DNA from: a virus
DNA length: 44,455 nt
Reading direction: 5' to 3' (one strand)
Virus record (IMG/VR): IMGVR_UViG_3300034374_005054
Span: 1 to 44,455 of that record
The position numbers were made by a program, and so were the translations under genes. The stretch's first letter is position 1. Every line of letters starts with the position of its first letter. The notes beneath the pieces are model-generated. The model was not told the DNA's origin. It was given only the letters and a program-made list of their open reading frames with translations, and ran no database searches. This document shows positions 1 through 41,144 of the stretch, one piece after another.

Positions 1-37
1 CCTCGCGGGCATGCGGCGCGAAGGGACCCGTTATGTC

Positions 38-137
38 GGCGCGTATATAACGATGTACAAATTTTGCGCTATATACGGATCGATACAACGCTGTACAAAA
101 AATGCGCTATATACCGTGGGATACAACGCTGTACAAA
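38..137. repeat. Three degenerate direct repeats with TACA-N4-TGTA palindromes
   Basis: Three copies of a GCGC-TATATA...TGTACAAA unit lie at about 38-60, 66-99 and 104-137. The second and third contain the same 12-bp interrupted palindrome, TACAACGCTGTA, at 84-95 and 122-133. The first is degenerate. The third copy also carries the GTGGGATA word found in the arrays at 1942-2090. The position is just downstream of an operon terminator (156-181). If the window ends join, it is directly upstream of the leftward gene at 44455. An operator or promoter region is the simplest reading, by inference only. Confidence 0.6.
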
Positions 138-155
138 GTTTGGCCACCACGGGAT

Positions 156-181
156 AAAAAAAAGGGCCGCGAATGCGGCCC
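156..181 (-). terminator. Rho-independent terminator of the 1608-201 operon
   Basis: On the minus strand a perfect 7-bp GC stem (GGGCCGC/GCGGCCC, 164-170 with 175-181) encloses a 4-base loop and is followed by eight T residues (A tract 156-163 on the plus strand). This is a textbook intrinsic terminator. It closes the leftward operon that starts near 1608. Confidence 0.9.
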
Positions 182-200
182 GGTTTCGGTAGGTTTTGGG

Positions 201-308
201 TTATCGGTTTGCTATGTAGTGCAGCAGTAGAAACGCCGCTAGCGTCGCGATAGTTTCGGGTAGGGCGTTGGTCCCATGCAATTGAATCGCTGCAAGATTA
301 TCGATCAT
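201..308 (-). CDS. Small hydrophobic peptide, 35 aa
   Basis: This is a short leftward reading frame. It starts at the ATG at 306-308 and overlaps the end of the preceding gene by 11 bases. An AGGGG ribosome-binding site lies about 8 bases upstream, the same motif used by its operon neighbours. Residues from about 17 to 32 are hydrophobic (PETIATLAAFLLLHYIA), which suggests one membrane segment. It is the last gene before the terminator at 156-181. I recognise no family. The binding site and operon position support it, but its shortness leaves doubt. Confidence 0.55.
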   Translation of the reverse strand: MIDNLAAIQLHGTNALPETIATLAAFLLLHYIANR

Positions 309-507
309 CACGCGCCCCTTGTTTTGTTTCGTAATCAGTGGACGCGATCACGTGATCGCATAGCGTCGCGCTATATATCGCGCCGTCGTCTAGCAGCGCC
401 GCATATAGGCGCGCCGCGTCGCTGTAGTCTTCAAAGGCTTGCCAATAATCCATTAGCGGCGCGTCTGCGCGTCCGCCTACTCTCTTCGACCATATAACGA
501 AAAACAT
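298..507 (-). CDS. Hypothetical protein, 69 aa
   Basis: The start chosen is the ATG at 505-507, because AAGGGG lies 7-12 bases upstream and the previous gene stops 2 bases away. A longer frame to 615 would overlap the upstream gene heavily. The protein begins MFFVIWSKRVGG, is rich in aromatic and acidic residues, and has no cysteine pair, signal peptide or membrane segment beyond the weakly hydrophobic start. It lies between a DUF7227-like gene and a 35-aa membrane peptide in one operon. Function unknown. Confidence 0.75.
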   Translation of the reverse strand: MFFVIWSKRVGGRADAPLMDYWQAFEDYSDAARLYAALLDDGAIYSATLCDHVIASTDYETKQGARDDR

Positions 508-509
508 AG

Positions 510-1223
510 TTAACCCCTTGCGATAATGTCGGCGCTTTTCTTTTGCGCGCCGTGGGCAGGAAAACCAACAATAACGCGGCGCGTTTTGCGCTGGCACAAT
601 TGGCACTCTTTGCAATTGGTGTCTGAATAGGTCGCCGGGCAGGTCGCGACCTTGCGACCTTGTGGCGTGATTAGTGTTTTCGGCGCGTCCTCTGGCAGCA
701 CCACAACGACAGGAACATTGCCGAGCGTGGCCAATTCGTCCGCATGTTCTAAGTTATTGGCGCTCAGATTGATCGTGAACCCTTGCAGGTTCGCGAATCG
801 CACTATGTCCAAATTTTGCGGCGTGGTGGGATAATGGGTATAGGTAAACCCTTTGCGGCCCTTGTTCGCACTCACAAGCGCATTGAGCGCCACTTCGTCG
901 ATTGTTTCGCCGTCGCCTGGTAGATCGCCAGCGACATTGTGTCGCCACAATTGACCGGCTGGCAGCGCTGCAATGTTCGCGCACAAGGTCGCCCAATTGT
1001 CGCCACGTTCGCCCGCTGTGACTTTTTTCCAATGCCAAGAAACCGGGCCAACGCCCGCATAGCATCCAGAATCATAAAACGGGCAGCCGGTCGGGCAGGT
1101 TTTGCGCTCTGATACTGTCGCCGGGATAGGTCCAATTTTCGCGTTGCTGCTCTTTGGCGTAAAGTGGACGTTATAAGCGCCAGCAATAGCGGCGCGCATG
1201 ATGTTCTCATTTAATGCTTGCAT
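510..1223 (-). CDS. DUF7227-like cysteine-motif phage protein
   Basis: The 237-residue protein carries a cysteine cluster near residues 43-55 (CPTGCPFYDSGCYA) and a second near the C terminus (CPATYSDTNCKECQLCQ). Between them is a segment with alternating hydrophobic strands. The layout resembles DUF7227 and Gp37/Gp68-type phage proteins, which are discussed as radical-SAM-like metal proteins with a barrel fold. That match is from memory and not from a search. The start at 1223 is supported by AGGGGAATAAAC directly upstream, a leader shared by two operon genes. It is the central and largest gene of the 1608-201 operon, whose other members are small and partly membrane-bound. Biochemical role unknown. 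Confidence 0.8.
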   Translation of the reverse strand: MQALNENIMRAAIAGAYNVHFTPKSSNAKIGPIPATVSERKTCPTGCPFYDSGCYAGVGPVSWHWKKVTAGERGDNWATLCANIAALPAGQLWRHNVAGDLPGDGETIDEVALNALVSANKGRKGFTYTHYPTTPQNLDIVRFANLQGFTINLSANNLEHADELATLGNVPVVVVLPEDAPKTLITPQGRKVATCPATYSDTNCKECQLCQRKTRRVIVGFPAHGAQKKSADIIARG

Positions 1224-1225
1224 GT

Positions 1226-1396
1226 TTATTCCCCTAATTTTTTATCATCTAGCAGCGCGCACAATATCGCGCCAATTGCACAAGCGATCGCACAAGCGAT
1301 CGCAATATCAGCAGCGCCCAAAAGAAGCGCCGCGATCATCCAAGCGAAACCACAAAGAGCGACGCCACCGAACAAAGAAGAGAAAAGGCGCTTCAT
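1226..1396 (-). CDS. Small alanine-rich membrane protein, 56 aa
   Basis: The reading frame starts at the ATG at 1394-1396, which overlaps the stop of the preceding gene in an ATGA junction, and ends 2 bases before the DUF7227-like gene. After a basic start (MKRLFSS) it has one long hydrophobic stretch of roughly 38 residues rich in Ala, Ile, Leu and Cys, enough for one or two membrane passes, and ends LDDKKLGE. A 12-bp tandem repeat (GCGATCGCACAA) at 1284-1303 encodes an IACAIACAI segment. Holin-like by size and hydrophobicity, but it lies far from the lysis genes, so the function is open. Confidence 0.75.
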   Translation of the reverse strand: MKRLFSSLFGGVALCGFAWMIAALLLGAADIAIACAIACAIGAILCALLDDKKLGE

Positions 1397-1608
1397 GATT
1401 CAGCGCCCATCTTTTCGAGGTATAAAGTATCGAACGCATTACCCGCCAAGCTTTTGAGATTGGCGCGCACAATTTCAGCCTTTTCATAATCAGCTTCGTT
1501 ATAGCAAATCGTCCAAAGACCCGTGATCTGGTCCATCCAACGCTGGACGAATTCGTCACGGTTAACTTCAATGTCGCCGTTCCAATTTTGAACTGTGATT
1601 GTTTGCAT
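1393..1608 (-). CDS. Hypothetical protein, 71 aa
   Basis: This is the first gene of the leftward 1608-201 operon. The start at 1608 follows AGGGGAATAAAC, the same leader that precedes the DUF7227-like gene. The product is soluble, with an acidic helical centre (about residues 18-55) and no recognisable motif. Its stop overlaps the next start by 4 bases (ATGA), so translation of the downstream membrane peptide is probably coupled to it. No family recognised. Confidence 0.75.
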   Translation of the reverse strand: MQTITVQNWNGDIEVNRDEFVQRWMDQITGLWTICYNEADYEKAEIVRANLKSLAGNAFDTLYLEKMGAES

Positions 1609-1736
1609 GTTTATTCCCCTATTTGGTTTTTCGTTTTCGCCTTGTATGCAGCGATGAAACTGTAAATGCAGACTTTATGCCAAATCAAAAAACGGCAATA
1701 AAAACAATAACTTGCAATTTCGTATTAGACTAAAGT
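1609..1736. other. Upstream region of the 1608-201 operon
   Basis: This AT-rich stretch has no supported reading frame. It must hold the leader of the leftward operon that begins at 1608. On the minus strand, weak promoter-like words occur (TTGATT, 17-base spacer, TTACAG), but nothing strong enough to name as a promoter. Confidence 0.3.
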
Positions 1737-1784
1737 AGTGTTACTAAACGGAACGAAAGTGTTACCGGGCGCGGGAAGTGTTAC
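1737..1784. repeat. Three AGTGTTAC direct repeats
   Basis: AGTGTTAC occurs at 1737-1744, 1758-1765 and 1777-1784. The spacings are 21 and 19 bases, about two helical turns. The second and third copies extend to AAGTGTTACCG. They open a dense noncoding repeat block that runs to 2090. The regular spacing suggests protein binding on one face of the helix. Confidence 0.65.
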
Positions 1785-1803
1785 CGAATCGGTGTGCAAA
1801 AAA

Positions 1804-1930
1804 TGATCAAATATTGTGCGGATGCGAGAAAATTGATCAAATTTTGACCAAAATCGAGGGCAAATTGATCAAATATTGATCAATATTGTGCGATGCAGCA
1901 AAAACCGGGATTGGTCAAAAAATGATCAAT
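1804..1930. repeat. TGATCAA repeats with a TGATCAAAWTTTGACCA site
   Basis: TGATCAA occurs at 1804, 1834, 1866, 1877 and 1923. A longer site (TGATCAAATTTTGACCA, 1834-1850) recurs with one change at 41026-41042 in the other noncoding block, and in inverted orientation with two changes at 1911-1930. TTGTGCGGATGC (1814-1825) and TTGTGCGATGC (1886-1896) accompany them, as TTGTGCGGTGC does at 41006-41016. These are probably binding sites for one protein acting on both regions, possibly a replication initiator or a repressor. Confidence 0.7.
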
Positions 1931-1941
1931 GCGCGACCGAC

Positions 1942-2090
1942 CCCACCGTGGGATAGTAAATAACCCCACCATGGGATAGTAAATAGGATGACCACCGTGG
2001 GATACAGCAAGTGACCACCGTGGGATAGTAAGCAGGGATGAGAACCCTACCGTGGGATAGTAAATAAAGTTGCTACCCCACCGTGGGATA
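1942..2090. repeat. Array of six CCCACCGTGGGATA sites
   Basis: Six copies of CCAC-C-GTGGGATA are centred at about 1947, 1970, 1996, 2019, 2051 and 2082. Spacings are 23, 26, 23, 32 and 31 bases. The best copies (for example TACCCCACCGTGGGATA at 2074-2090) are near-perfect odd palindromes with arms TAYCCCAC/GTGGGATA. Two more copies sit upstream of the gene at 2944, and related words occur at 111-123 and 144-156. Most copies are followed by AGTAAATA. They look like operators or iterons. The array ends on the stop codon of the gene at 2093. Confidence 0.8.
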
Positions 2091-2092
2091 CA

Positions 2093-2944
2093 TTAACGAA
2101 GAACTAACGATGAGCCTGGGCGGAAAGCATCAGGAGATGCTTGAATATCTCTAATTCTTCCTGCAACTTGGCGGCGACGAAGGATTGCTTCGTTGGTTAA
2201 GTTGTACTCTTTGACTTGCTTCGCTGCCATTCTCTGGAACCTACGGGAGAATGATGGGCCGAATGTTTGTTTGATGGTCTTCTCAGAAGATTCAAAGTAA
2301 TAGAACCTCTTCCTATACTGTGGTTGCCTAACGGCAATCAGTACCGCTTCAAAGTTTTTGCTTCCTACAGAATCCCGCTTGTATATGCCAGGAGGCAAAT
2401 TAGCAAAGTCGCCCTTTCTAAAAATTGGAAAGTAAAGGCTCTTTTTAGGATTCTTGATATTTGCCTTATATCCCTGTTCGCCAAAGGCTTGTAAGTGCGA
2501 AAGCATTGTTGTGACAAACTTGCTGCGAAGGTCGCCCTTGCTATCAAGTATTGAGTTATTGCCCCTGGCTGGGACAAAGAAAACATTCCTGCCAAACTGC
2601 GGGAACTTGCTGAGAATGGCCTTCTCAAATCTTTTATGCGCTCTTGGGCCACCATAGATTTGAGGAGCCAAGTATTTATCTGGAGCCGTTCCACCCTTTG
2701 CTGTGTCCTCCAAGCCAACCAGGACACTAAGGTTATCCTTAGTGGCTCTACGCATCACTCGACCAGAATTTGATGTGTAAGGTCTTGGGTTATCGAAAAC
2801 CCGCCTCATCTGCTCTTTCCAACGCTTGCGGACTTGGAAAGCAGTGTCGTTGAGTGCTGAAGAAACAGCATAACGGAACAAGAATGGGAACTTCTTGACC
2901 AACGGAGCCGTACTAGTTTTGCTGATATTGAACTCGACCGCCAT
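2093..2944 (-). CDS. Putative minor tail / virion morphogenesis protein
   Basis: A basic 283-residue protein. The N-terminal half (helix around residues 22-50, then DKYLAPQIYGGPRAHKRFEKA near 89-109) resembles phage minor tail protein Z and related virion assembly proteins, in which a PQI-GG-R motif recurs. This is a from-memory resemblance. The C-terminal part is rich in Arg, Phe and Tyr. The start at 2944 has GGAGG 4 bases upstream. The gene lies apart from the structural region, and GTGGGATA palindromes flank it on both sides, one overlapping its ribosome-binding site. It may therefore be a separately controlled cassette. Assignment to a virion role is tentative. Confidence 0.65.
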   Translation of the reverse strand: MAVEFNISKTSTAPLVKKFPFLFRYAVSSALNDTAFQVRKRWKEQMRRVFDNPRPYTSNSGRVMRRATKDNLSVLVGLEDTAKGGTAPDKYLAPQIYGGPRAHKRFEKAILSKFPQFGRNVFFVPARGNNSILDSKGDLRSKFVTTMLSHLQAFGEQGYKANIKNPKKSLYFPIFRKGDFANLPPGIYKRDSVGSKNFEAVLIAVRQPQYRKRFYYFESSEKTIKQTFGPSFSRRFQRMAAKQVKEYNLTNEAILRRRQVAGRIRDIQASPDAFRPGSSLVLR

Positions 2945-2992
2945 ATGACCTCCGTGGGATAGTAAACCGATTATACCCCACTATGGGATACG
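2945..2992 (-). promoter_or_regulatory. Promoter with two palindromic operator-like sites
   Basis: Two GTGGGATA palindromes are centred at about 2953 and 2982. On the minus strand a TATAAT box (2970-2975) lies between them, and the upstream palindrome covers the spacer region. The downstream palindrome overlaps the GGAGG ribosome-binding site of the gene at 2944. Both transcription and translation could be blocked by a protein bound here. No clear -35 box is seen (TTAACG at 15 bases is weak). Confidence 0.55.
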
Positions 2993-3238
2993 TTAATCGT
3001 CGTACCCTTCGTGCATCGCAGCCATGATGTTAAGTTTCTCAACTTCGCCAACGGCGCGATAAGAAAAGTTAGGATGGAACTCAGGTCGATTCATCGTATG
3101 CCAGCGATCAACTGATCCATAGTTTGTAGCGCCTGGCGTTACACGGAACTGGAGTTCATCCCCATCAGCCCAACGACTGACTGCCCTCGCAAAAGACTGA
3201 CGATGCCCGTCTGCCATTTCCTTCAAATCACTCATCAT
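2993..3238 (-). CDS. Hypothetical protein, 81 aa
   Basis: The frame extends to 3277, but the start chosen is the ATG at 3236-3238 (MMSDLKEM), preceded by GGGGTAAGC. The earlier part has no binding site and overlaps another small gene. The product is soluble and mixed in charge, with no cysteines and no motif I recognise. It is the last gene of a run of four small genes that begins at 3799, just upstream of the operator-controlled gene at 2944. Confidence 0.65.
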   Translation of the reverse strand: MMSDLKEMADGHRQSFARAVSRWADGDELQFRVTPGATNYGSVDRWHTMNRPEFHPNFSYRAVGEVEKLNIMAAMHEGYDD

Positions 3239-3326
3239 GCTTACCCCACTGTGAAAGTGCATACAACGTGTATACACCTATGACCACAAAGATGATTACG
3301 CCAGTGATAGCTAAACTATCCGGCAT
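3228..3326 (-). CDS. Tiny single-pass membrane peptide, 32 aa
   Basis: The frame starts at the ATG at 3324-3326, overlapping the end of the preceding gene, and its stop (3228-3230) overlaps the start of the following gene. Residues 5-24 form one hydrophobic segment (LAITGVIIFVVIGVYTLYAL), followed by a polar tail SQWGKHDE. The ribosome-binding site is weak, so coupling to the upstream gene is needed. Hydrophobic pattern and double overlap support it. Its size warrants caution. Confidence 0.5.
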   Translation of the reverse strand: MPDSLAITGVIIFVVIGVYTLYALSQWGKHDE

Positions 3327-3537
3327 AGCTTAAATGCGTATCACCAAACGCATCCTCTGCCTTCTTCCACTTCTCAGCATCACAGAAATGTTCTTCGTCA
3401 CCATCGACCTCCATCAGAATCCACTCCTCTGGCTCAGTCTGAGTGGCTTTGTACTTAGCCCACTTGACATGATGCTCGATGTAGCCGTCTTCGCCATCGT
3501 CCTCAAGCCAAGTGCCGCTATAATAATCCACTTTCAC
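3316..3537 (-). CDS. Acidic hypothetical protein, 73 aa
   Basis: The start is a GTG at 3535-3537 with GAGG upstream, and the frame overlaps the preceding gene by 20 bases. The protein is strongly acidic and rich in Trp and Tyr (for example EPEEWILMEVDGDEEH near residues 36-51), a composition common in small phage proteins that mimic DNA or bind host enzymes. No specific family is recognised, and the mimic idea is speculation from composition. Confidence 0.65.
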   Translation of the reverse strand: MKVDYYSGTWLEDDGEDGYIEHHVKWAKYKATQTEPEEWILMEVDGDEEHFCDAEKWKKAEDAFGDTHLSYAG

Positions 3538-3799
3538 CTACCTCAATCCTCTCGGTAACCGCAAACTTAACTTCCGTATACCAGCCAGGATTCTTCTTGT
3601 AAATCACTTGCACTTGACCATTGACCACCTCCATCGTCTTATCTAGCCAGTACACGAACCGATTGTCGTCTTTATGAGCCAGATGGAAGTACCAATCGTC
3701 TCTTAATTCGCCAAGAGTGATCTCTTCGCCAACATGTGCGTTCAGCGCCTTTATCATCGCTAACATAGGTGTGTCATATGTTTGAGCTTTCTTTTGCAT
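3518..3799 (-). CDS. Hypothetical protein, 93 aa
   Basis: This is the first gene of the small-gene run 3799-2993, after a roughly 150-base spacer holding two hairpins. It starts at the ATG at 3799, with an AGGAA word about 10 bases upstream. The protein is soluble, with a helical N-terminal half and a strand-rich second half (VVNGQVQVIYKKNPGWYTEV). No motif recognised. Confidence 0.65.
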   Translation of the reverse strand: MQKKAQTYDTPMLAMIKALNAHVGEEITLGELRDDWYFHLAHKDDNRFVYWLDKTMEVVNGQVQVIYKKNPGWYTEVKFAVTERIEVGESGLL

Positions 3800-3850
3800 T
3801 CTTGATGTTCCTATTAACTTTTAGAGGGTCTTAAAGTGAAGGGATTTTGT

Positions 3851-3886
3851 AGTGATAGATAGGGGACAACAAGTCCCCCTATCACT
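3851..3886 (-). terminator. Possible terminator hairpin after the helicase gene
   Basis: AGTGATAG...GGGGAC (3851-3867) pairs with GTCCCCCTATCACT (3873-3886) across a short loop, with a 3-base bulge. On the minus strand it is followed by ACAAAATCCC and not by a T tract, so it is a weak intrinsic terminator at best. It may act instead as an mRNA-stabilising hairpin between the replication cluster and the small-gene run. Confidence 0.45.
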
Positions 3887-3923
3887 ATGAAATCACGCTT
3901 TAATAGACCCACTTAAATACCTC

Positions 3924-3980
3924 AAATGTTGTTGTTGTTGGTGGTATATATACTAGGGGTTTTGACCACCAACAACATTT
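3924..3980 (-). other. Long hairpin spanning the helicase stop codon
   Basis: AAATGTTG...TTGGTGGT (3924-3945, with extra GTT units) is complementary to ACCACCAACAACATTT (3965-3980). The 19-base loop contains the TAG stop (3953-3955) of the RepA-like helicase gene. The right arm lies in its last codons (VGGQNP end). No T tract follows. It could modulate termination or protect the 3' end of the message. Confidence 0.5.
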
Positions 3981-5074
3981 ATCCCGACCTCGATTCCCTT
4001 TGGCGTATAAACCGGCTCCCAAGCAAATGAATCCTTGATGTATTCGATCATTGCTGGGACGTTTCTGGTGTTGTCCACAACGTCTGACAAACGGAATGGA
4101 ACGCAGCCAGCAGGAATCCTTGCCCTTGTGTTCGTATGGATAAATATCGGCTTCCTGGCGAGACGAACAGCTTCCGCCACCTTCGCCTTCATTGCGTCCA
4201 TCTCAACCTCTTTACGAAGCTCTTTGGCGACCTCAACGGCATCCTCGCTGAACTCTTCCCAATCAAGGATCATGACTTCAGCCTGACCGTTGGTAAAGTT
4301 CACCGGCACACGGTGACCCTGACCTGCCCACTGTGGCGAATGATCAATGATCCGCCAACGATCCTTGTCCCATCGAGCGACAGTCTTCTCAATGTCCTTC
4401 TCCCACTGCACATTGATCGACCAGTCGATGTTCCCGATCAACGCAGACGCACCTCTGGCTGAACGACCTTCGGATGCCTTGCTCGTGTGATGCACGATCA
4501 CGACGCAGCCACTAGGGTCCAGATTCGGAACAATGTGATCCTCAATGCGCTTGATCAGCTTAGACGCTTCCTTGTTGTCGTTCTCTTCAAAGGAAAACAT
4601 CGTCGCCAGAGTATCGAACACGATCATCATTGGCGGGTTAGGCAGCTTCTGCATCCACTTACCCAGAGACTCCACCTGATGCACCTCTAGCGCCTTCGTA
4701 GGAAGCGCGTACAGGGCGTTCGTCTTTGGCTTACCCTTGTACCCCAAATACGCCTTCAGACGCGCCAGAATGTGCCCCTGTGACTCAGAGAACAGCACAA
4801 CATCACCTGACTGCATGGCGTGACCTTGCCACTGATCTTCGCCAATCATCATTGACGTTATAACGTCACAGATCAGATGTGACTTGCCTGAGTTGGATGG
4901 CCCGAACAACATGCCAATCGACTTGGCGGGGATCATCCGATCAAGCGTCCAAGTCGGCATGGTGATCTGCATATCCCAATCCTCTATGGGATACAGATTC
5001 TCTGGCTGTTCAGCCGCATATTCTTCGTATTCTTTGACCTTTTTCAGCTCCGCATCGAAGTCAAATTCGCTCAT
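3953..5074 (-). CDS. RepA-like hexameric replicative helicase (RecA-fold ATPase)
   Basis: The 373-residue ATPase has Walker A GPSNSGKS (residues 58-65), a Walker B strand ending IVFDTLA (Asp154) and an HHTSK sensor-like motif at 195-199. This is the order seen in the RepA/AAA_25 branch of DnaB-like helicases from plasmids and phages, and the length fits. It would unwind the replication fork in the cytoplasm using ATP. The upstream neighbour, overlapping by 14 bases, encodes a primase-type zinc finger, so the two probably form a helicase-primase unit. The C-terminal 90 residues are less typical and may bind partners or DNA. The start at 5074 is the first ATG, within the overlap. Confidence 0.85.
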   Translation of the reverse strand: MSEFDFDAELKKVKEYEEYAAEQPENLYPIEDWDMQITMPTWTLDRMIPAKSIGMLFGPSNSGKSHLICDVITSMMIGEDQWQGHAMQSGDVVLFSESQGHILARLKAYLGYKGKPKTNALYALPTKALEVHQVESLGKWMQKLPNPPMMIVFDTLATMFSFEENDNKEASKLIKRIEDHIVPNLDPSGCVVIVHHTSKASEGRSARGASALIGNIDWSINVQWEKDIEKTVARWDKDRWRIIDHSPQWAGQGHRVPVNFTNGQAEVMILDWEEFSEDAVEVAKELRKEVEMDAMKAKVAEAVRLARKPIFIHTNTRARIPAGCVPFRLSDVVDNTRNVPAMIEYIKDSFAWEPVYTPKGIEVGINVVGGQNP

Positions 5075-5546
5075 TGATCAATCCCTTCTCTATTATTTCT
5101 GCGTGGGTCCAGAAGAAATCTCGATCCATCGCAGTCACCCCATTTCTATTTGCCCTTGACAGGACTTCCGCTGCGTCTCGAAAGGTCGGTATATCTTCTT
5201 CTTCGCACCCCTCTTCAGCCACTATGTCCAAGACAGTCAATGCCCACAGGTGCAGTTGATACGGCACAGGGCTTTCCACCTTGAACTGGTGGATGACTTC
5301 TTTGCTTAGTTTCTCGTTTTGTACTAACCCGCGATCAGCGAGTTCCTTCATGATTTCAGGGTAGGTGCAACCGGCGCGACACCCAAAGATGATTGGTAAC
5401 TTTCGCCCTGGACGTATCCAGAACCGATCAGTTCCCCCGCATACCGGACACGGACCTTTTCTTTCCTGACTGCCGCCTTTTAAGTTTAGCGCCTCGCTGA
5501 AGGTTGATGAGGCGTTCCCCCACGACATTTCTAATATTGAGTTCAC
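5061..5546 (-). CDS. Primase-type zinc-binding protein
   Basis: The start chosen is a GTG at 5544-5546, because AAGGGGAA lies about 8 bases upstream. Longer frames lack a site. The 161-residue protein carries CPVCGG, then GCRAGC about 20 residues later (roughly residues 33-58), the layout of the DnaG/gp4 zinc-binding domain that recognises template DNA. No Toprim catalytic motif follows. The remaining 100 residues are helical and may contact the helicase encoded just downstream. It probably supplies the template-recognition half of a primase. The gene providing the polymerising half is not visible in the window. Confidence 0.75.
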   Translation of the reverse strand: MNSILEMSWGNASSTFSEALNLKGGSQERKGPCPVCGGTDRFWIRPGRKLPIIFGCRAGCTYPEIMKELADRGLVQNEKLSKEVIHQFKVESPVPYQLHLWALTVLDIVAEEGCEEEDIPTFRDAAEVLSRANRNGVTAMDRDFFWTHAEIIEKGLINERI

Positions 5547-5697
5547 AGATAACTTCCCCTTTCGCATCATAGCCGTCAAACGACTTGACACGATACATGC
5601 CTTTTGTAGTTCTTATGATCCGATGGGACCGGGCTTCCGATCCCACCAGAAACTCCAACTCCTCAAAGGCAGCCTCTAAGTCGTTGAATTGGCTCAT
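5428..5697 (-). CDS. Hypothetical protein, 89 aa, long overlap with primase gene
   Basis: It starts at the ATG at 5697, 1 base after the DUF669 gene stop, without a clear ribosome-binding site, so coupling is likely. The first 50 residues look like a normal soluble protein. The last 39 codons overlap the primase zinc-finger gene in another frame and read as a basic tail (KLKRRQSGKKRSVSG), typical of out-of-frame translation of that gene. Either the overlap is genuine or a +1 frameshift joins the two frames. Function unknown. Confidence 0.55.
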   Translation of the reverse strand: MSQFNDLEAAFEELEFLVGSEARSHRIIRTTKGMYRVKSFDGYDAKGEVICELNIRNVVGERLINLQRGAKLKRRQSGKKRSVSGMRGN

Positions 5698-5698
5698 A

Positions 5699-6184
5699 CT
5701 AGAAAGGTATCGCGTCGTCTACGGGTGCATCAGACGGAGGAGTCGCTTGTGCAGGATTCGTGCCATACAACTTCTGACCTGCATCCATCTGGCTAGTCTC
5801 TTTCTTCTTGAACGCCTTGATGCGGTTATATTCGCCATCAATGGCAATGTAGACCTCCAACTCCTTGTCCATCAGTTCCACAGGGTTCCATGGGTCTTGG
5901 ATCGAGTTGTACCCAGTAGCGATACAGAAATTGCCTAGCTGTTGCATTGCAATCTCGACCGTCTTTGGGTTGGTGTGAGTCATGTTGAAGTTATGCCAAC
6001 ACTTGCGAGCAGTGCTACCAACGGTCACTGTAAACTCGACGTTCAGCAGTTCGCCATTGCCAGACTTCATCGCTCGACGCTCAAAGCCAGTCATCTTGGC
6101 TGTGTAGTTCCCTTCAGGGATAGGTGAGCGGTCCATTGGTGCAGATTCAGTGTTCTGCGACACATATTGAGTTGCATCAAACAT
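5699..6184 (-). CDS. DUF669-type single-stranded DNA-binding protein
   Basis: The 161-residue protein has the DUF669 pattern: an early strand-rich PEGNYTAKMTGFE segment (about 24-36), a strand with VEFTV, then NPKTVEIAMQQLG. It ends in a disordered Pro/Ala linker and the acidic tip DDAIPF, the classic SSB-type tail that docks partner proteins. It would coat ssDNA during replication and recombination. The gene sits directly after the Sak4-type ATPase (shared TAATG junction), and DUF669 and Sak4-type genes are often neighbours in phages. This supports a joint annealing role. Confidence 0.85.
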   Translation of the reverse strand: MFDATQYVSQNTESAPMDRSPIPEGNYTAKMTGFERRAMKSGNGELLNVEFTVTVGSTARKCWHNFNMTHTNPKTVEIAMQQLGNFCIATGYNSIQDPWNPVELMDKELEVYIAIDGEYNRIKAFKKKETSQMDAGQKLYGTNPAQATPPSDAPVDDAIPF

Positions 6185-6921
6185 TACTTTTCTCCTTTTA
6201 ATGCTTTGAGGAATGCATCGTATGAAAGCTCCATCTCAGATGGTAGCCCGTAACGATTCTTTGCCAACCACGCAGGACGTTCCTCTGTGTAGAGGATACG
6301 TTCCCCAGTCCCGACAGCGCGAGTGCGTTGACCGCCACGCGATTCAGACTTCATGGTTGACTTCTTATAGTTGGCGAACAATATCGCATCCGAATGCTCG
6401 CACACAAGGTCAGACGCTTTCTGTTGCAGCTTGATCTGATAGCGATCAAACGCATCGGTGTCTGGCGACTTGAACTCACGGATGATCGAGTGACCAACCA
6501 AGATCGTCTGCATCGCCTTCATGTCACGCAGATAGTTCAGCCGATCCAAGAACTCACGCCAATACTTGAGCGCCTCCACATAGCCACGACCGTAGCCTGG
6601 TTGTTCAATCGTCTTGTAACCATTGGCATCACAAGTATGCGACCAGATCAACGGCTCTAACCAATCCAGTGAGTCCACAACTATCGTTTTGTAGTCGTGA
6701 TCCTCCTTGATAAGGGCATCAAGCGAATCTCTGGCTTCTGTGTATGACTTTGGGCTTGGGAAAGCATCTGCTTCGATCTTGCCAAGTCCGTCCTCGATAG
6801 GGAGGAAGATAGGCTTCGGCGCTGCCGATCCAAAAGTCGTCTTTCCAATTCCTGCCTGTCCATAGATCAATATCCTTGGCGGCTTCATCTTGCCGCCCTT
6901 GCTGACTTGAGATAAGTCCAT
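6184..6921 (-). CDS. Sak4-type RecA-fold recombination ATPase (AAA_24)
   Basis: The start chosen is the ATG at 6919-6921 (MDLSQVSKGG), preceded by AGAGGAAAAACG. The longer frame to 6990 overlaps the nuclease gene and lacks a site. The 245-residue protein has Walker A YGQAGIGKTT (Gly21-Thr28) and a Walker B strand TIVVDSLDW. The compact single-domain layout matches the AAA_24 / phage nucleotide-binding (Sak4) family, reduced RecA relatives that stimulate single-strand annealing with a cognate SSB. The DUF669 protein encoded next is the likely partner. Confidence 0.82.
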   Translation of the reverse strand: MDLSQVSKGGKMKPPRILIYGQAGIGKTTFGSAAPKPIFLPIEDGLGKIEADAFPSPKSYTEARDSLDALIKEDHDYKTIVVDSLDWLEPLIWSHTCDANGYKTIEQPGYGRGYVEALKYWREFLDRLNYLRDMKAMQTILVGHSIIREFKSPDTDAFDRYQIKLQQKASDLVCEHSDAILFANYKKSTMKSESRGGQRTRAVGTGERILYTEERPAWLAKNRYGLPSEMELSYDAFLKALKGEK

Positions 6922-6932
6922 CGTTTTTCCTC

Positions 6933-7322
6933 TTACATTTCTTCTCTGAGCCATCCACAGAATAGCTCTAGGTCCACATCGCATGTACACCGGAAGTCTC
7001 CAATGTCATACAACTCAATGTGCAGCGGATACTGCACAATACAGCGCCAAGGCTGGCGATCTGCTCTGTAGATAACGACAGGACGCTTATGAACCCGCTT
7101 GGCTTGATCAACAGCCTGTCGCCACCAATTCTTTTTTGATGCGGTATCAGCGACCGCATATCGCTTGACTTCAATAGCCCAGTCATCAAGTCCAATGAGG
7201 TCATGACCGCCCCAGGCAGTCTGGGAATAGTTACGCTGTAGCTCAATGCCAGTGAGGTCATAGATGGCCTTAATACACTCGCGTTCACCTGACGCGCCCT
7301 TGTTTCTGCTATTGATCGACAT
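6933..7322 (-). CDS. PDDEXK nuclease, Holliday-junction-resolvase-like
   Basis: The 129-residue protein begins with NKGASGERE (Glu13), followed by the GGHDLIG motif (Asp41) and AIEVKRY (Glu51, Lys53). This is the E...D...ExK core of the PDDEXK fold, as in archaeal-type Hjc resolvases and related phage nucleases. It would cleave branched DNA made during replication and recombination. Its neighbours, a Sak4-type ATPase and an SSB, support this. A general VRR-NUC-like or tRNA-unrelated nuclease cannot be excluded. The start at 7322 overlaps a small upstream frame by 14 bases. Confidence 0.75.
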   Translation of the reverse strand: MSINSRNKGASGERECIKAIYDLTGIELQRNYSQTAWGGHDLIGLDDWAIEVKRYAVADTASKKNWWRQAVDQAKRVHKRPVVIYRADRQPWRCIVQYPLHIELYDIGDFRCTCDVDLELFCGWLREEM

Positions 7323-7440
7323 TTTTCAGCTTAAGCTCCAATCGAATGGCTTTGTCTTCTAACTCGTATCCTCTGGCAATCAGTCCATTAGAAAATGCGT
7401 ACAACATTTTTATGTACGTTTTTCTAAGCTTCCTTAACAC
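7309..7440 (-). CDS. Possible small basic helical protein, 43 aa
   Basis: A frame in the gap between the HTH/zinc-ribbon and nuclease genes starts at a GTG (7438-7440) after GGAAAA and ends inside the nuclease start region. The product is basic at its N terminus (VLRKLRKTYIK) and forms a charged helix afterwards (RGYELEDKAIRLELKLKN). It fills an otherwise unexplained 128-base gap, and overlap with the next gene is usual here. The non-ATG start and small size keep confidence low. Confidence 0.45.
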   Translation of the reverse strand: MLRKLRKTYIKMLYAFSNGLIARGYELEDKAIRLELKLKNVDQ

Positions 7441-7450
7441 TTTTCCGCGC

Positions 7451-7771
7451 TTACTTCCCATTGACGATGCTCTTCCTTAACTGCGACCAACACGACCCGC
7501 ATTCGTAAATTCCATCTTCAAAGATCACAGCCTTCTCACCGCAATGACATTTGTTGTTGAGTGGCTCTGCCTGTTTGTCGGCAATATCCGACTGAATAAC
7601 CAAATGCTTCCAGGTCTTCCCCTTCAATATCTTGCTGACATGGGCATTAGTTATCTCAAACTTCTCAGCAATCTGCTTTTGAGTTAACCCTTCCTTGTAC
7701 AGCGCATGGATCAAGGGAATGTCTTCTGGGTCTATTTTTCTGTTCACACGATTTTCCCAATGGTTGCTCAT
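7451..7771 (-). CDS. HTH and zinc-ribbon protein
   Basis: The 106-residue protein has an N-terminal helix-turn-helix (GLTQKQIAEKFEITNAHVSK, about residues 28-47) followed by a treble-clef or ribbon with CHC at about 76 and CGSCW near 92. It should bind DNA, with the metal site adding structure or a second contact. It overlaps the Cro-like gene by 4 bases and is thus transcribed from the divergent promoter at 7959-7987. It is probably a regulator of early transcription. HNH-associated HTH proteins share this layout, but no catalytic motif is visible. Confidence 0.7.
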   Translation of the reverse strand: MSNHWENRVNRKIDPEDIPLIHALYKEGLTQKQIAEKFEITNAHVSKILKGKTWKHLVIQSDIADKQAEPLNNKCHCGEKAVIFEDGIYECGSCWSQLRKSIVNGK

Positions 7772-7938
7772 TGTTTTGCCTTTAACTTTCCTCTGGTTTC
7801 AAGTTCGATCTGTGCTTGTCTAGCGAAAGGAATCTTGCCCTTCTTCTTCCACAGGTAGATCGTCTGCCGACTAACCCCAAGCGAATCAGCCAGCCCCTTA
7901 ATACTCCCGTAGTATTTGATTGTTTCTTCAAGTGTCAT
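7768..7938 (-). CDS. Cro/YdaS-like repressor, 56 aa
   Basis: The start at 7938 is fixed by AGGAGG 4 bases upstream (AGGAGGTGTTATG). The frame to 7956 would begin inside that site. The protein is a compact helix-turn-helix (GLADSLGVSRQTIYLWKKKG, about residues 13-32), like YdaS and Cro repressors. It is the first leftward gene after a divergent promoter pair. The palindrome and direct repeats between 7949 and 7991 are natural targets, so it may repress its own promoter and that of the YqaJ gene. Confidence 0.8.
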   Translation of the reverse strand: MTLEETIKYYGSIKGLADSLGVSRQTIYLWKKKGKIPFARQAQIELETRGKLKAKQ

Positions 7939-7949
7939 AACACCTCCTG

Positions 7950-7978
7950 TTGACAACTAACTTAACGCCCCTTAATCT
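7950..7978 (+). promoter_or_regulatory. Rightward sigma70-type promoter for the YqaJ gene
   Basis: TTGACA (7950-7955) and TAATCT (7973-7978) are separated by exactly 17 bases, 33 bases upstream of the ATG at 8012. GTTGACAAC around the -35 box is a near palindrome. The word CAACTAA recurs at 7954 and 7985, 31 bases apart, and could be repressor half-sites. Confidence 0.75.
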
Positions 7979-7987
7979 GAGTGTCAA
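7959..7987 (-). promoter_or_regulatory. Leftward sigma70-type promoter for the Cro-like operon
   Basis: On the minus strand TTGACA (7982-7987) and TAAGTT (7959-7964) are separated by 17 bases, just upstream of the Cro-like start at 7938. It overlaps the rightward promoter almost completely, so the two must compete. This is the arrangement of a genetic switch. Confidence 0.7.
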
Positions 7988-8011
7988 CTAATTAGACAAA
8001 GGGAAACACAA

Positions 8012-8953
8012 ATGGTAGGAAAACTATCCGATGATCGGCTGATGTCTGGGAGTAGAATCCCGGTCCTGTATGCCTGGCTAATCGCCAAGGAAGGGCATCC
8101 TTACTCAACGCCAAACGATGAACTGAGGAAGTCCATCGCAGCGAAGCATGGAGAGTACGAACGTGATAACGCCCATAGTGAACCCGCTTATTGCGGCAAC
8201 CTATTTGAATCGACCATTGCAGTCGATGTTTGCCAAGAACTTGGCTTACCTGACCCAGAGCTATCCCCGTCTGTTTTTCACGCCGAAGACGGCAGTTGGC
8301 AATGCTCTATGGACGCACTTATTACACTGCCAAACACTACAACAATATTCGCTAATGACTTGGTTGAGATTGATGGAGAATTACCGCACATCGAACTCAG
8401 CGGACCCGTTCCAATCGAGGTGAAGACCACCGAACAACGCTATGACGCTAAAACGCCAATCTGGCGTGGTCCAGTACAGTTACAGATGCAGATGATGGCT
8501 GTCGATGCGAAGTTTGGCATTCTAGCCACAGTGCATCGCGGCAACTATCGTCATTACAAGATTTATCGTAGCGATCCAGTCATGCAACAAGTGATCGGTG
8601 ATCTTTGTCTCGACTTCCGTGATAGAGTGGCTGAAGAAAGATTTTATCCGCCGGTGAACGTAGATGACTGTAGCAAGACACATCAAGGAGGGAATACTGA
8701 TCCTGTTGAACTCAACAGCCTCGCTGATGATGTGGAACGATTGGTTGGACTACTCCAGAAAGCTAAAGACATCGAAGCAGAGATCGGTACAGTGCAAACC
8801 AAGATTATGTCGGAAATGCAAGATAGCGAAGTCGCACAGGTGGGCGAGTTTACCGTCAAATGGCCTAGACGACACTACAAAGCACAACCCGAAAAAGTAA
8901 CTCCCGCCAAAGAAGCCCGGACTATCCGATTGAAAACCTTGCAAATAAGATGA
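8012..8953 (+). CDS. YqaJ-type viral exonuclease (PDDEXK)
   Basis: The only supported rightward gene. The 313-residue protein has the YqaJ/lambda-exonuclease order of motifs: GNLFE (Glu66), CSMDALI (Asp101), PIEVKTT (Glu136, Lys138) and a following QLQMQMMA helix with the conserved Gln. It would degrade one strand of double-stranded DNA ends, giving a 3' overhang for an annealing protein. The Sak4-type ATPase and SSB on the other strand are the likely partners. It has its own strong promoter (7950-7978) and terminator (9021-9045). This isolation is unusual for an exonuclease, which normally shares an operon with its annealase. The C-terminal 100 residues are helical. Confidence 0.85.
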   Translation: MVGKLSDDRLMSGSRIPVLYAWLIAKEGHPYSTPNDELRKSIAAKHGEYERDNAHSEPAYCGNLFESTIAVDVCQELGLPDPELSPSVFHAEDGSWQCSMDALITLPNTTTIFANDLVEIDGELPHIELSGPVPIEVKTTEQRYDAKTPIWRGPVQLQMQMMAVDAKFGILATVHRGNYRHYKIYRSDPVMQQVIGDLCLDFRDRVAEERFYPPVNVDDCSKTHQGGNTDPVELNSLADDVERLVGLLQKAKDIEAEIGTVQTKIMSEMQDSEVAQVGEFTVKWPRRHYKAQPEKVTPAKEARTIRLKTLQIR

Positions 8954-9018
8954 GTGGCATGTAAATTGCAAGGGAGTTCATCGAACTTTCCCTCACCTGC
9001 CCCCCTATGCAGGAGACT

Positions 9019-9576
9019 TTAGCCCTCTTTTGAGGGCTTTTTTTTGATCAATTCGTCCTGAATCTGTGACTGTCTGTCTGAGTCGAACCGCGATGCTTTT
9101 TGCCTGTTGGCTGCCTTAGTGAGTACCTGTACGTTATCCGGTACGTCTAGTCCGCACACCAATTCATGGATCAGTGGGATGATGTGATCAACTTCGTGCT
9201 TTATACCAGTATCGATAGATAACAACTGTGCCTCAAGTCGAATCCTGCGTAGCTCTGTAATGCCTTTATCGGTTGCGACTCGTGATTTCTTCTCAAAGTA
9301 TCGGCGATTCTTAACTGCTCGCTTGTGGGCTTCTGAGTCTGCATATCGCTTCGCTCGATCTCTTTTATGCTGCTTGTAGGCTTCGTCTCCGTAGTCGAGC
9401 CAGTAATCTTTTTTTGTTCTAGCGCGATTTCGTATGCGTAAACACTCGCGGCAGTTCTTGTTCTTAGCGAATCGCTCCGACAGATGACCATGCTTACATG
9501 GCTTGCCGGTGAAATAGTAAGTAACACCTTGTCTTAGTGCCTCTGCCTGGGTCGCAGGAAATTTCCTTTTCTCCAT
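9019..9576 (-). CDS. HNH endonuclease
   Basis: The 185-residue protein ends with an HNH core: HEVDHIIPL (about residues 128-136), a loop with LDVPDNVQVLTKAANRQK, where Asn and Asn/Lys complete the metal site. The N terminus has a CKHGH...NCRECLRIR zinc-knuckle pattern (about 27-49) common in phage HNH proteins. It cuts DNA in a metal-dependent way and may be a homing nuclease or assist packaging. The gene is the last of the leftward late operon, after the endolysin, and its final codons form the terminator of the opposing YqaJ gene. Confidence 0.85.
   Translation of the reverse strand: MEKRKFPATQAEALRQGVTYYFTGKPCKHGHLSERFAKNKNCRECLRIRNRARTKKDYWLDYGDEAYKQHKRDRAKRYADSEAHKRAVKNRRYFEKKSRVATDKGITELRRIRLEAQLLSIDTGIKHEVDHIIPLIHELVCGLDVPDNVQVLTKAANRQKASRFDSDRQSQIQDELIKKKPSKEG
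9021..9045 (+). terminator. Terminator of the YqaJ gene
   Basis: AGCCCTC and GAGGGCT (9021-9027, 9032-9038) form a perfect 7-bp stem with a 4-base loop, followed by eight T residues on the plus strand. The stem and T run also lie in the last codons of the convergent HNH gene, so one stretch of DNA serves both. Confidence 0.9.
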
Positions 9577-9588
9577 TGACCCAACTTA

Positions 9589-9969
9589 TCAATATGACCA
9601 AATGGTCGGTCGAGGCCACCCCTCATCTCTGGTTAAATCATCCAGATGTATGAAGCGCGCGGAACCCTTTTGGTTCACACCTATCCCAGTAAATCCATGC
9701 CCTAGCGCCGCACACAGGAACTTGTATGCGTCTTCTCCTTGAATCGCTATATCAACTGCTCTGCCGCTTGCGTGAGCGCCTGGCTTTGTCTTCCTTGCCT
9801 CTATGGGATGATTCGGGCAGCGGTAGCCGCTCGTCACTGTCATCGGCTGACTCCAATCCGCTCTGAGGCTTGTCAGCTTCTCCATAAATTCTTTGTGCAT
9901 ACCGTCCTGCTCGCACCCACACTGGCATCGCATTTCTTCCTCTGTGAAGAATGGTGAACTCCAAGTCAT
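9589..9969 (-). CDS. Peptidase M15 endolysin
   Basis: The 126-residue protein is a single peptidase M15 (D-Ala-D-Ala carboxypeptidase-like) domain. SGYRCPNHP (47-55), GAHASGRAVDI (64-74, His66 and Asp73) and FIHLD (His108) give the zinc ligands and catalytic surroundings. It cleaves peptide stems of peptidoglycan to free progeny. It lacks a signal peptide, so access to the wall depends on the holin, whose gene precedes it with an ATGA overlap. An added CQCGC near the N terminus is typical of this phage subfamily. Confidence 0.9.
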   Translation of the reverse strand: MTWSSPFFTEEEMRCQCGCEQDGMHKEFMEKLTSLRADWSQPMTVTSGYRCPNHPIEARKTKPGAHASGRAVDIAIQGEDAYKFLCAALGHGFTGIGVNQKGSARFIHLDDLTRDEGWPRPTIWSY

Positions 9970-10331
9970 TTCTTTTTCTTCTCCATGAATCCTTCGACGG
10001 CTCCTCCGCCAAAGTAAAAGCCAAGGATGATGAGCATGGCATAGTTAATACTGAACTGCTCCATGACCTTAGTCACTGCGTCTGGATCGCCCTGGCCTGA
10101 GATTGTCATGCCCAGAACTAAGACGTAACTCAACAAAAATGTTAATCCAAACATCAGCGCCAGGTAACGCTGCGCGAGCTTGAATGGTGCATATGCGGAG
10201 AGCAAGTCCGTTTTTGCCTTGGCTTTTGCGGCAATCTCTTCCTCTGTTGAGGTGTGCATGTTGTCAATCAGGTCAAGACCCTTCTCGATTACATTGCCTG
10301 ATCCTAGCATCTTGCTGATGACACCGATCAT
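9966..10331 (-). CDS. 3TM-type holin
   Basis: The 121-residue protein has an N-terminal amphipathic part (about 1-50), then hydrophobic segments near 54-76 (LALMFGLTFLLSYVLVLG region) and 95-110 (AMLIILGFYFGG) and a lysine-rich tail MEKKKK. This matches the phage 3TM holin family (Holin_3TMs), which forms membrane lesions at lysis. It overlaps the endolysin gene by 4 bases, and its start shares a TAATG with the preceding gene, so the lysis pair is translationally coupled. Confidence 0.85.
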   Translation of the reverse strand: MIGVISKMLGSGNVIEKGLDLIDNMHTSTEEEIAAKAKAKTDLLSAYAPFKLAQRYLALMFGLTFLLSYVLVLGMTISGQGDPDAVTKVMEQFSINYAMLIILGFYFGGGAVEGFMEKKKK

Positions 10332-10513
10332 TATGTGCCTCCTATATTGTGATCTGTCTGAATACAGATCGAGTCGTAGTTAATCTTTGGCTGTGGTGCG
10401 GTAGCCATGAAGAAGTCTCTAGCCTCAAAGCAATCAACCATCGTGGGATATACGCCCTGCGGAGCGACGATATACCGATCAACCTCTAACAAAATCACAA
10501 ATAGAATCCACAT
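10331..10513 (-). CDS. Small signal-anchor protein, 60 aa
   Basis: Begins MWILFVILLEVDRY, a short hydrophobic anchor, followed by a polar region with two cysteines (CFEARD, SICIQT). AGGGG lies about 6 bases upstream of the ATG at 10513. Its stop overlaps the holin start (TAATG). Position beside the holin and an exported-looking N terminus suggest a lysis accessory or spanin-like role, but no lipobox is clear. Function unproven. Confidence 0.65.
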   Translation of the reverse strand: MWILFVILLEVDRYIVAPQGVYPTMVDCFEARDFFMATAPQPKINYDSICIQTDHNIGGT

Positions 10514-10516
10514 GGC

Positions 10517-10951
10517 TCACCCCTTTGCTGATGAGATTACCCAGATAAAAGCAAAGACAACAGCGATAGCCGCCAGTGAACCACCGACAATAATCGCAAT
10601 GTCCTGCTGCATCTTCTGCTTCTTGAGCTTGGCCTTGGTTTCCTCGATTTTCTTCTGCTTTTCGGCTTCGCGCCTATCTTCAACGAACTTTTGATACTGG
10701 TTCCAATGCCCACTGTACACCAGCATTTCTTTGATTTCTGCCCACTTTTGCTCTAGCTCCACCTGGGCAGCATAGAGTTCTAGGTCGGACTTTTCTGGGC
10801 TATTGGCAACCGCTTTCTCGACAGCTTGCTTGGCTGTCATCATCTTGCCAATGTTGGCAAATATCTGTGATATTTCACCTGCGTTGCTTGCCGCAGTTTT
10901 GACAACTGCGTAACTTGCGTTAAAAGCAGCTATCGCAGTTAAAGGGTCCAC
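10517..10951 (-). CDS. C-terminally anchored coiled-coil membrane protein (copy 1)
   Basis: A 144-residue protein with a weakly hydrophobic N terminus, a long charged helix (about 50-115), and one C-terminal membrane segment (DIAIIVGGSLAAIAVVFAFI region). The start is a GTG at 10951, overlapping the TAG of the preceding gene. It is a paralogue of the gene at 11692: both share an E-IK-M-hY-G...W..YQKF...R....E.KK pattern before the anchor. The pair flanks a virion protein gene. A role in lysis timing or in a virion membrane-contact protein is possible. Neither is shown. Confidence 0.7.
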   Translation of the reverse strand: MDPLTAIAAFNASYAVVKTAASNAGEISQIFANIGKMMTAKQAVEKAVANSPEKSDLELYAAQVELEQKWAEIKEMLVYSGHWNQYQKFVEDRREAEKQKKIEETKAKLKKQKMQQDIAIIVGGSLAAIAVVFAFIWVISSAKG

Positions 10952-11688
10952 TAAGACTTGTCCGCAATAAGCATTATATCAAATGCCGCAGTGATCCTGG
11001 CGTTGTTTGATCGGACGGTCGCTCTTATATCAATATCAGATTTTTCTGGTATTCGTAGAGGTATACCGAAGTCATACATATACTCGCCGCCAGCACCAGA
11101 AAATTCAAAAGAATGACCTACGCGAAAAGAGGCTTCGCCGAAATACCGAACGTACATATCGCCAGTCGCATCAGCACCATCCTGACAAGTAGCCGCGCCT
11201 TTCATTATGTACGCTGTGTATCCAGCCGGAACAGTGTAAATCGCGGCATGAGATACAGCCTTGCCAGCAGTGATCCGCATAACAGTCACACCGCCTTTTT
11301 GAACATTTATGTCAGCTACATTTATTGCTGATCCGTTTGTAATAAAGGCTTCTACTACACGAATGAATGAACTGGTAGTAGCTGTCGCTTCAGCACTGGA
11401 AACAGTCACAACCTCCTGAATTAGGTCATAGGATGCGTTCAAACCGATAATCCGTATCGTTTTACCATTATCAGACGCATTGACAGCCGGTACAGACAGC
11501 GTTCCAGCAGAAGTAAAGGATGACCAAGGGTAGGCTGTGTCGTTTACGTCCCAGATTGTTCCGGTACTATTCTGACTCATTGCAGGGACAGCACCGAACT
11601 TGTGGACGTGCGAAAGACCTTGATAATGATTTGCCGCAACGCCTAATAGTCCATGCGGTAAACGGATAATGTCCTGAATCATACTCAT
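10951..11688 (-). CDS. Putative virion surface or tail protein, 245 aa
   Basis: Strand-rich and poor in Lys, with many Ser, Thr, Ala and Gly, as in phage decoration and tail-surface proteins. The start MSMIQDIIRLPHG and a repeated VSS/TATTSS segment near 95-106 lead to a C-terminal jelly-roll-like pattern ending DIMLIADKS. I recall similar proteins as structural components in marine phages but cannot name a family. It stands between two paralogous membrane-anchored proteins, which is unusual. Confidence 0.6.
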   Translation of the reverse strand: MSMIQDIIRLPHGLLGVAANHYQGLSHVHKFGAVPAMSQNSTGTIWDVNDTAYPWSSFTSAGTLSVPAVNASDNGKTIRIIGLNASYDLIQEVVTVSSAEATATTSSFIRVVEAFITNGSAINVADINVQKGGVTVMRITAGKAVSHAAIYTVPAGYTAYIMKGAATCQDGADATGDMYVRYFGEASFRVGHSFEFSGAGGEYMYDFGIPLRIPEKSDIDIRATVRSNNARITAAFDIMLIADKS

Positions 11689-40531: not shown

Positions 40532-40832
40532 CTCCTAAAAGCTCATTTTAAAATTTTTCTCGACCCTTATGACCTCCTAAAAGGTCATTTTGAAATTTTT
40601 TTTTCTCCTAAATGACGAAAACGAAATTTTTTTTTCTCCTAAATTGCCGTTTCAAAATTTTTCGAGAGCGTTAATGTCCACGCGCAAATTTTCTAACCTC
40701 CTAAAAAGTGCCATAGTCAAAAATCCCAGTGCGTTAATGTTCACGCTGAAAAAATCAGACCTTGTAAAAAGTGCCATCGTCAAAAATCCTAGTGCGTAAA
40801 TGTCCACGCCGGAAAAATTCGACCTCCTAAAA
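40532..40832. repeat. TCCTAAA repeats with 31/62-base modules
   Basis: CTCCTAAA occurs at about 40532, 40574, 40605, 40636, 40698 and 40824, with a variant CTTGTAAAA at 40761. Spacings of 42, 31, 31, 62, 63 and 63 show a 31-base or doubled step. Two longer modules (AAAAAGTGCCATNGTCAAAA, then GTGCGTTAATGTNCACGC) recur at about 40702 and 40766 and partly at 40666 and 40793. On the minus strand the core reads TTTAGGAG, like a ribosome-binding site, but no long frame follows. Confidence 0.7.
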
Positions 40833-40865
40833 ATCGACGCGGCAAAAAATCGAGCTTGTCATTTT

Positions 40866-41044
40866 TCGCTGTGCAAATTTTGACCTGTGCAATTTCTGCA
40901 CTTTTCCGCATTGCACCAATTTGTGCAGTGCCGCAAATCATCAACCAAAAGGGGCAGAAAAAGGCGCATTTTGTGCGTTGCACCATTATTGTGCAGTGCA
41001 TCATTTTGTGCGGTGCAACATCGATTGATCAAAATTTGACCAAA
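40866..41044. repeat. TGTGCA-rich region with a TGATCAAAATTTGACCA site
   Basis: TGTGCA, TTGCAC and GTGCAGTG words recur about ten times between 40868 and 41016, several as inverted pairs. At 41006-41016 TTGTGCGGTGC is followed at 41024-41044 by a 21-base site centred on TGATCAAAATTTGACCA, which is found with one change at 1832-1852 after a TTGTGCGGATGC. The region is one half of the motif pair linking the two noncoding blocks. Confidence 0.7.
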
Positions 41045-41048
41045 TCCG

Positions 41049-41144
41049 AATATAGTTTCAAGAAAGGCCAATATAGTTTCTGACGTGACCAATATAGTTT
41101 CAAGAAGCATGAATATAGTTTCAAGAAACGTAAATCTAGTTTCA
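41049..41144. repeat. Five AATATAGTTTCA iterons with exact 21-bp spacing
   Basis: AATATAGTTTCA-like units begin at 41049, 41070, 41091, 41112 and 41133, each 21 bases apart, exactly two helical turns. The last copy (AATCTAGTTTCA) overlaps the stop codon of the helicase gene at 41142. Between units the sequence varies except for a common AAGAA. Regular iterons next to AT-rich DNA and beside replication genes are typical of initiator-binding origins. An operator array is the alternative. Confidence 0.85.

Follow-up and report, generated by a model that had tools for sequence, protein, structure and literature searches.

A strand-oriented 11-bp repeat array beside a minor tail protein gene of phages and its possible role in transcription control

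Results

The window analysed in this study is the whole 44,455-nt stretch of the viral record IMGVR_UViG_3300034374_005054. Gene X, which encodes a minor tail protein, is located at 2093-2944, and the features around it are listed in Table 1. Eight minus-strand copies of TATCCCA(C/T)(G/A)G surround this gene, six of them 3' of the stop codon and two 5' of the start codon, in agreement with the number given in the initial annotation. The copies are read on the minus strand, which is the sense strand of gene X, and coordinates are given on the plus strand. The word GTGGGATA occurs 9 times in the window against 0.89 expected, a count that was reached in 0 of 100 shuffles. Coordinates also bore out the placement of the upstream copies at a TATAAT spacer and at the ribosome-binding site, and in relatives of the window's clade the counterpart of 5' copy 1 is likewise followed by a -10-like hexamer. 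A downstream copy had been thought to end on the stop codon; the first copy actually starts 2 nt past the TAA. Related words had been noted at 111-156 as well. One is indeed present at 114-123; it is part of a 38-bp tandem repeat next to a cos-like site and may be a coincidence, because the homologous repeat in contig G006 reads TATATCGCGG at that place.

Table 1. Positions of gene X, the repeat copies and neighbouring features in the window
Feature	Position	Strand	Basis
Gene X, minor tail protein (phrog_1924), 283 aa	2093..2944	-	phrog_1924, E 3.8e-48
Repeat cores, downstream set	1946-1955, 1969-1978, 1995-2004, 2018-2027, 2050-2059, 2081-2090	-	sequence
Repeat cores, upstream set	2952-2961, 2981-2990	-	sequence
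3' array, six TATCCCA(C/T)GG copies directly past the X stop codon	1946..2090	-	sequence
5' copy 1 (TATCCCATAG), inside the 17-nt spacer of GATTAA-N17-TATAAT	2981..2990	-	sequence
5' copy 2, overlapping the X Shine-Dalgarno GGAGG (2949-2953)	2952..2961	-	sequence, relatives
-10-like TATAAT of the putative X promoter	2970..2975	-	sequence, inference
Weak -35-like GATTAA of the putative X promoter	2993-2998	-	sequence
Second repeat set, specific to the lineage, TGATCAAAT-type, in noncoding sequence past the array	1797..1930	-	sequence
Intrinsic terminator GGGCCGC-ATTC-GCGGCCC-T8, closing the gene cluster past the array; neighbour	156..181	-	sequence
cos-like site GGGTCCCTTCGCGCC; neighbour, outside the array	15-29 (within 1..137)	-	G006 homology
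38-bp tandem repeats adjoining the cos-like site	45-137	-	G006 homology

Window positions 1185-11609 are matched by an independent contig at 99.9%, and the part from 32.6 to 44.5 kb matches contig L227 at 99.9%. The L227-type phage encodes NinG, helicase, primase and terminase of its own, and 12 contigs of this type contained no motif copy. Since in L238 and L244 the second phage continues differently at gene 10951-11688, which is common to both phage types, we regard the window as a probable chimera with its junction at about 10,976-11,607, inside that gene. The join recurs in contigs L236 and L237 from a different assembly, and a real recombinant is possible. The array and gene X lie in the validated part of the window. 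Tandem repeats of 63, 17 and 21 bp were also seen at 40668-41152.

The profile phrog_1924 was matched by X in all 20 of the diverse relatives scanned. Profile searches with X used clade alignments, the full X alignment having no stretch that was conserved enough. The BFVD matches of an AlphaFold model of X from contig L056 (pLDDT 88.7) are predicted minor tail proteins of viruses, and comparison of the model with the PDB gave no convincing fold match. In known relatives X either stands at the end of the genome or immediately precedes the terminase genes. The separation of X from other structural genes, pointed out at the outset, therefore holds here and is the normal placement for the family, and it is exaggerated in the window because the contig is probably chimeric. 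In Sinorhizobium phage phi2LM21 (L199, 554-2169), a gene annotated as encoding a NusG-type antitermination protein stands directly before X and the terminase genes come after it.

Comparison of about 70 viral contigs, from uncultured aquatic phages, identified the conserved element as CTATCCCACGG, an asymmetric 11-bp direct repeat that usually has TTTA or GG directly 5' of it in the aligned copies. Information in these copies is about 1.3-1.9 bits per core position and below 0.9 bits in the right half. The GTGGG half, which is the source of the palindromic look, is largely confined to the window's lineage. The palindrome first described is thus found in some copies and is a lineage feature, not the real unit; across relatives only the asymmetric TATCCCACGG core is conserved. 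In 903 kb scanned with the repeat profile there were 515 sense and 5 antisense matches, and permuted-motif control profiles gave 0.33 and 0.37. This strand count excludes eight viral pattern matches without X, which have two copies and lie mostly within large ORFs. In 20 whole contigs, exact copies were all on one strand with no reverse exact copy. A palindromic operator was rejected, since the site is asymmetric, its right half is unconserved and nearly all copies share one orientation. Sense matches were clustered in 482 cases and single in 33, and 21 of the single matches fall within coding sequence. Repeat spacings are 11, 15, 21, 23, 27 and 29 with a phase coherence of about 0.33, and tandem runs at 11-base spacing reach up to about 16 copies.

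The motif was searched for in other phages together with its neighbours. Viral contigs were scanned for two cores 5-35 bases apart, which gave 81 stretches. At 64 of the 66 loci with at least three clustered copies, an X homologue precedes the array on its 5' side and is encoded on the same strand; the array of the two exceptions is at the contig edge. The loci were fetched by motif, so the linkage to X was not selected for, and some of them are near-copies or pieces of one contig. X and the array are within 60 nt of each other in 50 of these 64 loci; in the remaining ones the gap is 67-511 nt, and an inserted gene fills several of these gaps. One or two copies are often found also 5' of X or of the X operon, in several lineages at -10-like sequences or start codons, with some only 1-8 nt before the start. 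The bracketing of one gene on both sides, proposed from the window, is kept in diverged relatives.

When the same scan was applied to a 257-billion-base genome collection, 59 matches were inspected; none was a phage-type array and none had an X homologue, which argues against carriage of the array by prophages or hosts. No such array was found in 84,980 reference genomes, a BLAST search with the array found none in cultured phages, for which short repeats are a hard query, and literature on the 11-mer yielded only unrelated papers. Protein-side searches from X revealed arrays in close relatives. The array was absent in the X-bearing contigs L009, L184 and L185 and around X in Cronusvirus and S-CBS3. 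The same gene without repeats thus occurs in these relatives and was not seen within the array-bearing lineages. Two changes are needed to explain the array carriers on a tree of 42 X proteins, and a single clade of array-bearing X was rejected (p-AU 0.008). Arrays accompany two X lineages.

In long contigs, nearly all genes point in one direction, and the order is replication genes, X, array, a noncoding stretch of about 50-400 nt, small genes, terminator, cos-like site, TerS and TerL. The noncoding stretch holds lineage-specific repeats, which in the window are of the TGATCAAAT and AGTGTTACC types (1740-1930, between the array and the next gene) and in other lineages are unrelated to these. 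GP88 or DUF7227 is among the small genes past the array in several lineages. A T-run terminator is located 1.4-2.6 kb past the array in about 17 contigs, about half of those scanned, and no intrinsic terminator was detected inside the arrays of the contigs scanned. Window positions 1-137 are homologous to the stretch just 5' of TerS/TerL in G006, and in both contigs the array is about 1.9 kb from the cos-like site. From this homology, the cos-like site and its 38-bp repeats are probably the terminase recognition region. A head/terminase module is common to the array phages, and two unrelated helicase/primase sets accompany the motif. In 12 contigs there was no match to a tyrosine or serine integrase/resolvase (PF00589, PF00239), no NusG-family gene and no HTH_3 gene common to all, HTH_3 genes being present in only 5 of the 12. 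Also considered was a small HTH protein whose gene contains a motif copy; it is found in G018, L076 and L082 and is not general among array phages. No Rfam match was found in window 1-4500.

Genes are found between repeat copies in some contigs. X is 99% identical in L078 and L056, and L078 has in addition an ORF and a repeat copy, inserted exactly between copies. The inserted ORF, of 90 aa, is at L078 9430-9725, compared with L056 9157, beside nearly identical X genes. The arrays of the two also differ in length, with 6 versus 14 copies. The same slot is occupied by a PDDEXK_14 nuclease in G004, by a different small protein in G003, L044 and L075, and by TsaE in L081.

Discussion

The array has features in common with several known systems. 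Stoperators of Cluster A mycobacteriophages (L5-type) number more than 20 per genome and are spread across it in short intergenic gaps; the immunity repressor of the phage binds them and stops elongation in one orientation (PMC9283540). The array resembles them in being a short asymmetric site, here an 11-bp core with a variable right half, whose orientation tracks transcription (515 sense, 5 antisense) and whose copies are located in promoters and short intergenic gaps. Unlike stoperators, it has a different sequence, forms tandem clusters beside one tail gene (482 of 515 matches) and comes with no repressor or integrase that we found. Start-associated sequences (SAS) of Cluster K mycobacteriophages, GGGATAGGAGCCC, include the Shine-Dalgarno core and lie 3-7 bp before start codons (PMC3203893). 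They too are short asymmetric repeats in almost one orientation, and some copies of the present repeat are a few nt from start codons; however, its consensus is CTATCCCACGG, and most copies are in tandem 3' of the X stop codon. Because the array has some defining features of stoperators and SAS and lacks others, we assign it to neither. It differs from integron cassette arrays in the lack of a PF00589 or PF00239 match in 12 contigs and of a conserved hairpin as in attC.

We tentatively regard the array as direction-specific transcription-control sites that bracket the X transcription unit, with a probability of roughly 0.38. The 5' copies, at the promoter or start of X or the X operon, would act as operators. 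The 3' cluster, between X and the next gene cluster, would serve as a protein roadblock on transcription, as L5 stoperators do. In a genome transcribed almost wholly one way, such a roadblock would prevent read-through between the X unit and the unit after it, which is presumably early. This reading is based on the orientation of the copies, which follows transcription, on the X homologue 5' of nearly every array, and on the 5' copies that several lineages have at start codons or -10-like sequences. It is also suggested by the strong terminator that closes the following cluster when no terminator was detected in the arrays, and by the independence of the motif from replication genes. Points against it are that promoter predictions past the array are mostly no better than shuffles, beating them in only a few lineages, and that some copies are inside coding sequence. 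In addition, transcription in these genomes runs nearly all one way, so that an orientation following transcription is indistinguishable from one following replication or packaging.

The protein that would bind these control sites is more likely a host factor or an unrecognised phage protein than X itself. X is unlikely as the binder because array-bearing X falls into two lineages that do not group as a single clade and because array-less X relatives exist. The copy number of 14 versus 6 beside X genes that are 99% identical is easier to reconcile with a redundant binding platform than with a precise structure. It counts against the control-site reading that no binding protein turned up in the 12 contigs searched; these have neither a common HTH_3 gene nor an integrase or resolvase, which makes an immunity repressor improbable. 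The repressor-controlled cassette of the initial annotation was an inference for which we found no regulator, and the DNA loop suggested between the two sets of copies gained no specific support.

We ranked four other explanations, with a replication origin first, followed by an RNA element, a recombination seam and a packaging function. An origin is rather unlikely. In this reading the repeats would be iterons bound by a host factor or an initiator, and unwinding would take place in the noncoding stretch that follows. Like iteron-type origins of phages and plasmids, the array consists of tandem direct repeats in one orientation near replication genes, with helicase and primase genes nearby in many lineages and a second repeat set in the noncoding stretch behind. 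However, the spacing is only partly in step with the helix (11, 21 and 23, but also 15, 27 and 29), the 200 nt past the array do not consistently exceed the genome in AT content, and GC skew has no extreme at the array. Nor is there a single replication module, since the motif occurs with unrelated helicase/primase sets and is missing from phages that share one set (12 contigs).

The next possibility, which we consider doubtful, is that CUAUCCCACGG is read in the 5' leader or 3' end of the X mRNA by an RNA-binding protein or an RNA, and would thereby regulate translation, processing or antitermination. The near-total sense-strand bias is equally compatible with an RNA role, because the 3' array would sit in the X transcript, and copies 1-8 nt before start codons and directly past the stop codon are in line with it. 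On the other hand, one 5' copy in the window's lineage is in the promoter spacer and so outside the transcript from that promoter, the variable right half leaves no conserved hairpin evident, and neither an Rfam match (window 1-4500) nor a NusG-family gene (12 contigs) was found.

It is improbable that the repeats persist as recombination linkers, that is, short identical words at gene junctions that let co-infecting phages exchange or lose genes. The extra ORF and repeat copy of L078, and the unrelated cargo in the same slot of other contigs, would be explained in this way. This evidence amounts to one clean empty/filled pair and one looser pair, and an ordinary deletion between direct repeats would look alike. 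In addition, the 12 contigs have no tyrosine or serine recombinase, and the tandem expansion beside X and the promoter copies are left unexplained. We consider equally improbable a related version, an integrase-less gene-cassette site beside X, where genes would be gained or lost as units that each comprise a gene and one oriented 11-bp repeat.

Repeats bound by terminase, such as the R sites of lambda cosB, are known at phage cos sites. A packaging or DNA-end function, by terminase recognition or by X as a tail protein anchoring the genome end, is very unlikely: the array does consist of direct repeats within the few kb that precede the terminase genes of phages sharing a head/terminase module, with X in its usual place, but it is not beside a cosN, the cos-like site about 1.9 kb away (window and G006) has its own 38-bp repeats, known X relatives have no such array, and the array-bearing X lineages are not one clade. 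The same position and separate repeat set make the array unlikely as a terminase site in particular.

In conclusion, an 11-base word is kept near letter-for-letter constant beside X proteins whose identity goes down to 25%. This constancy and the spread of the word imply a conserved reader common to these phages or their hosts. If the reader is identified, it would reveal how aquatic phages without recognised integrases separate their transcription units. If the cassette reading is true, the repeats would be both control sites and a shared seam for trading small cargo such as nucleases, TsaE and small ORFs. The word TTTACTATCCCACGG is an easy marker for finding members of this phage group.
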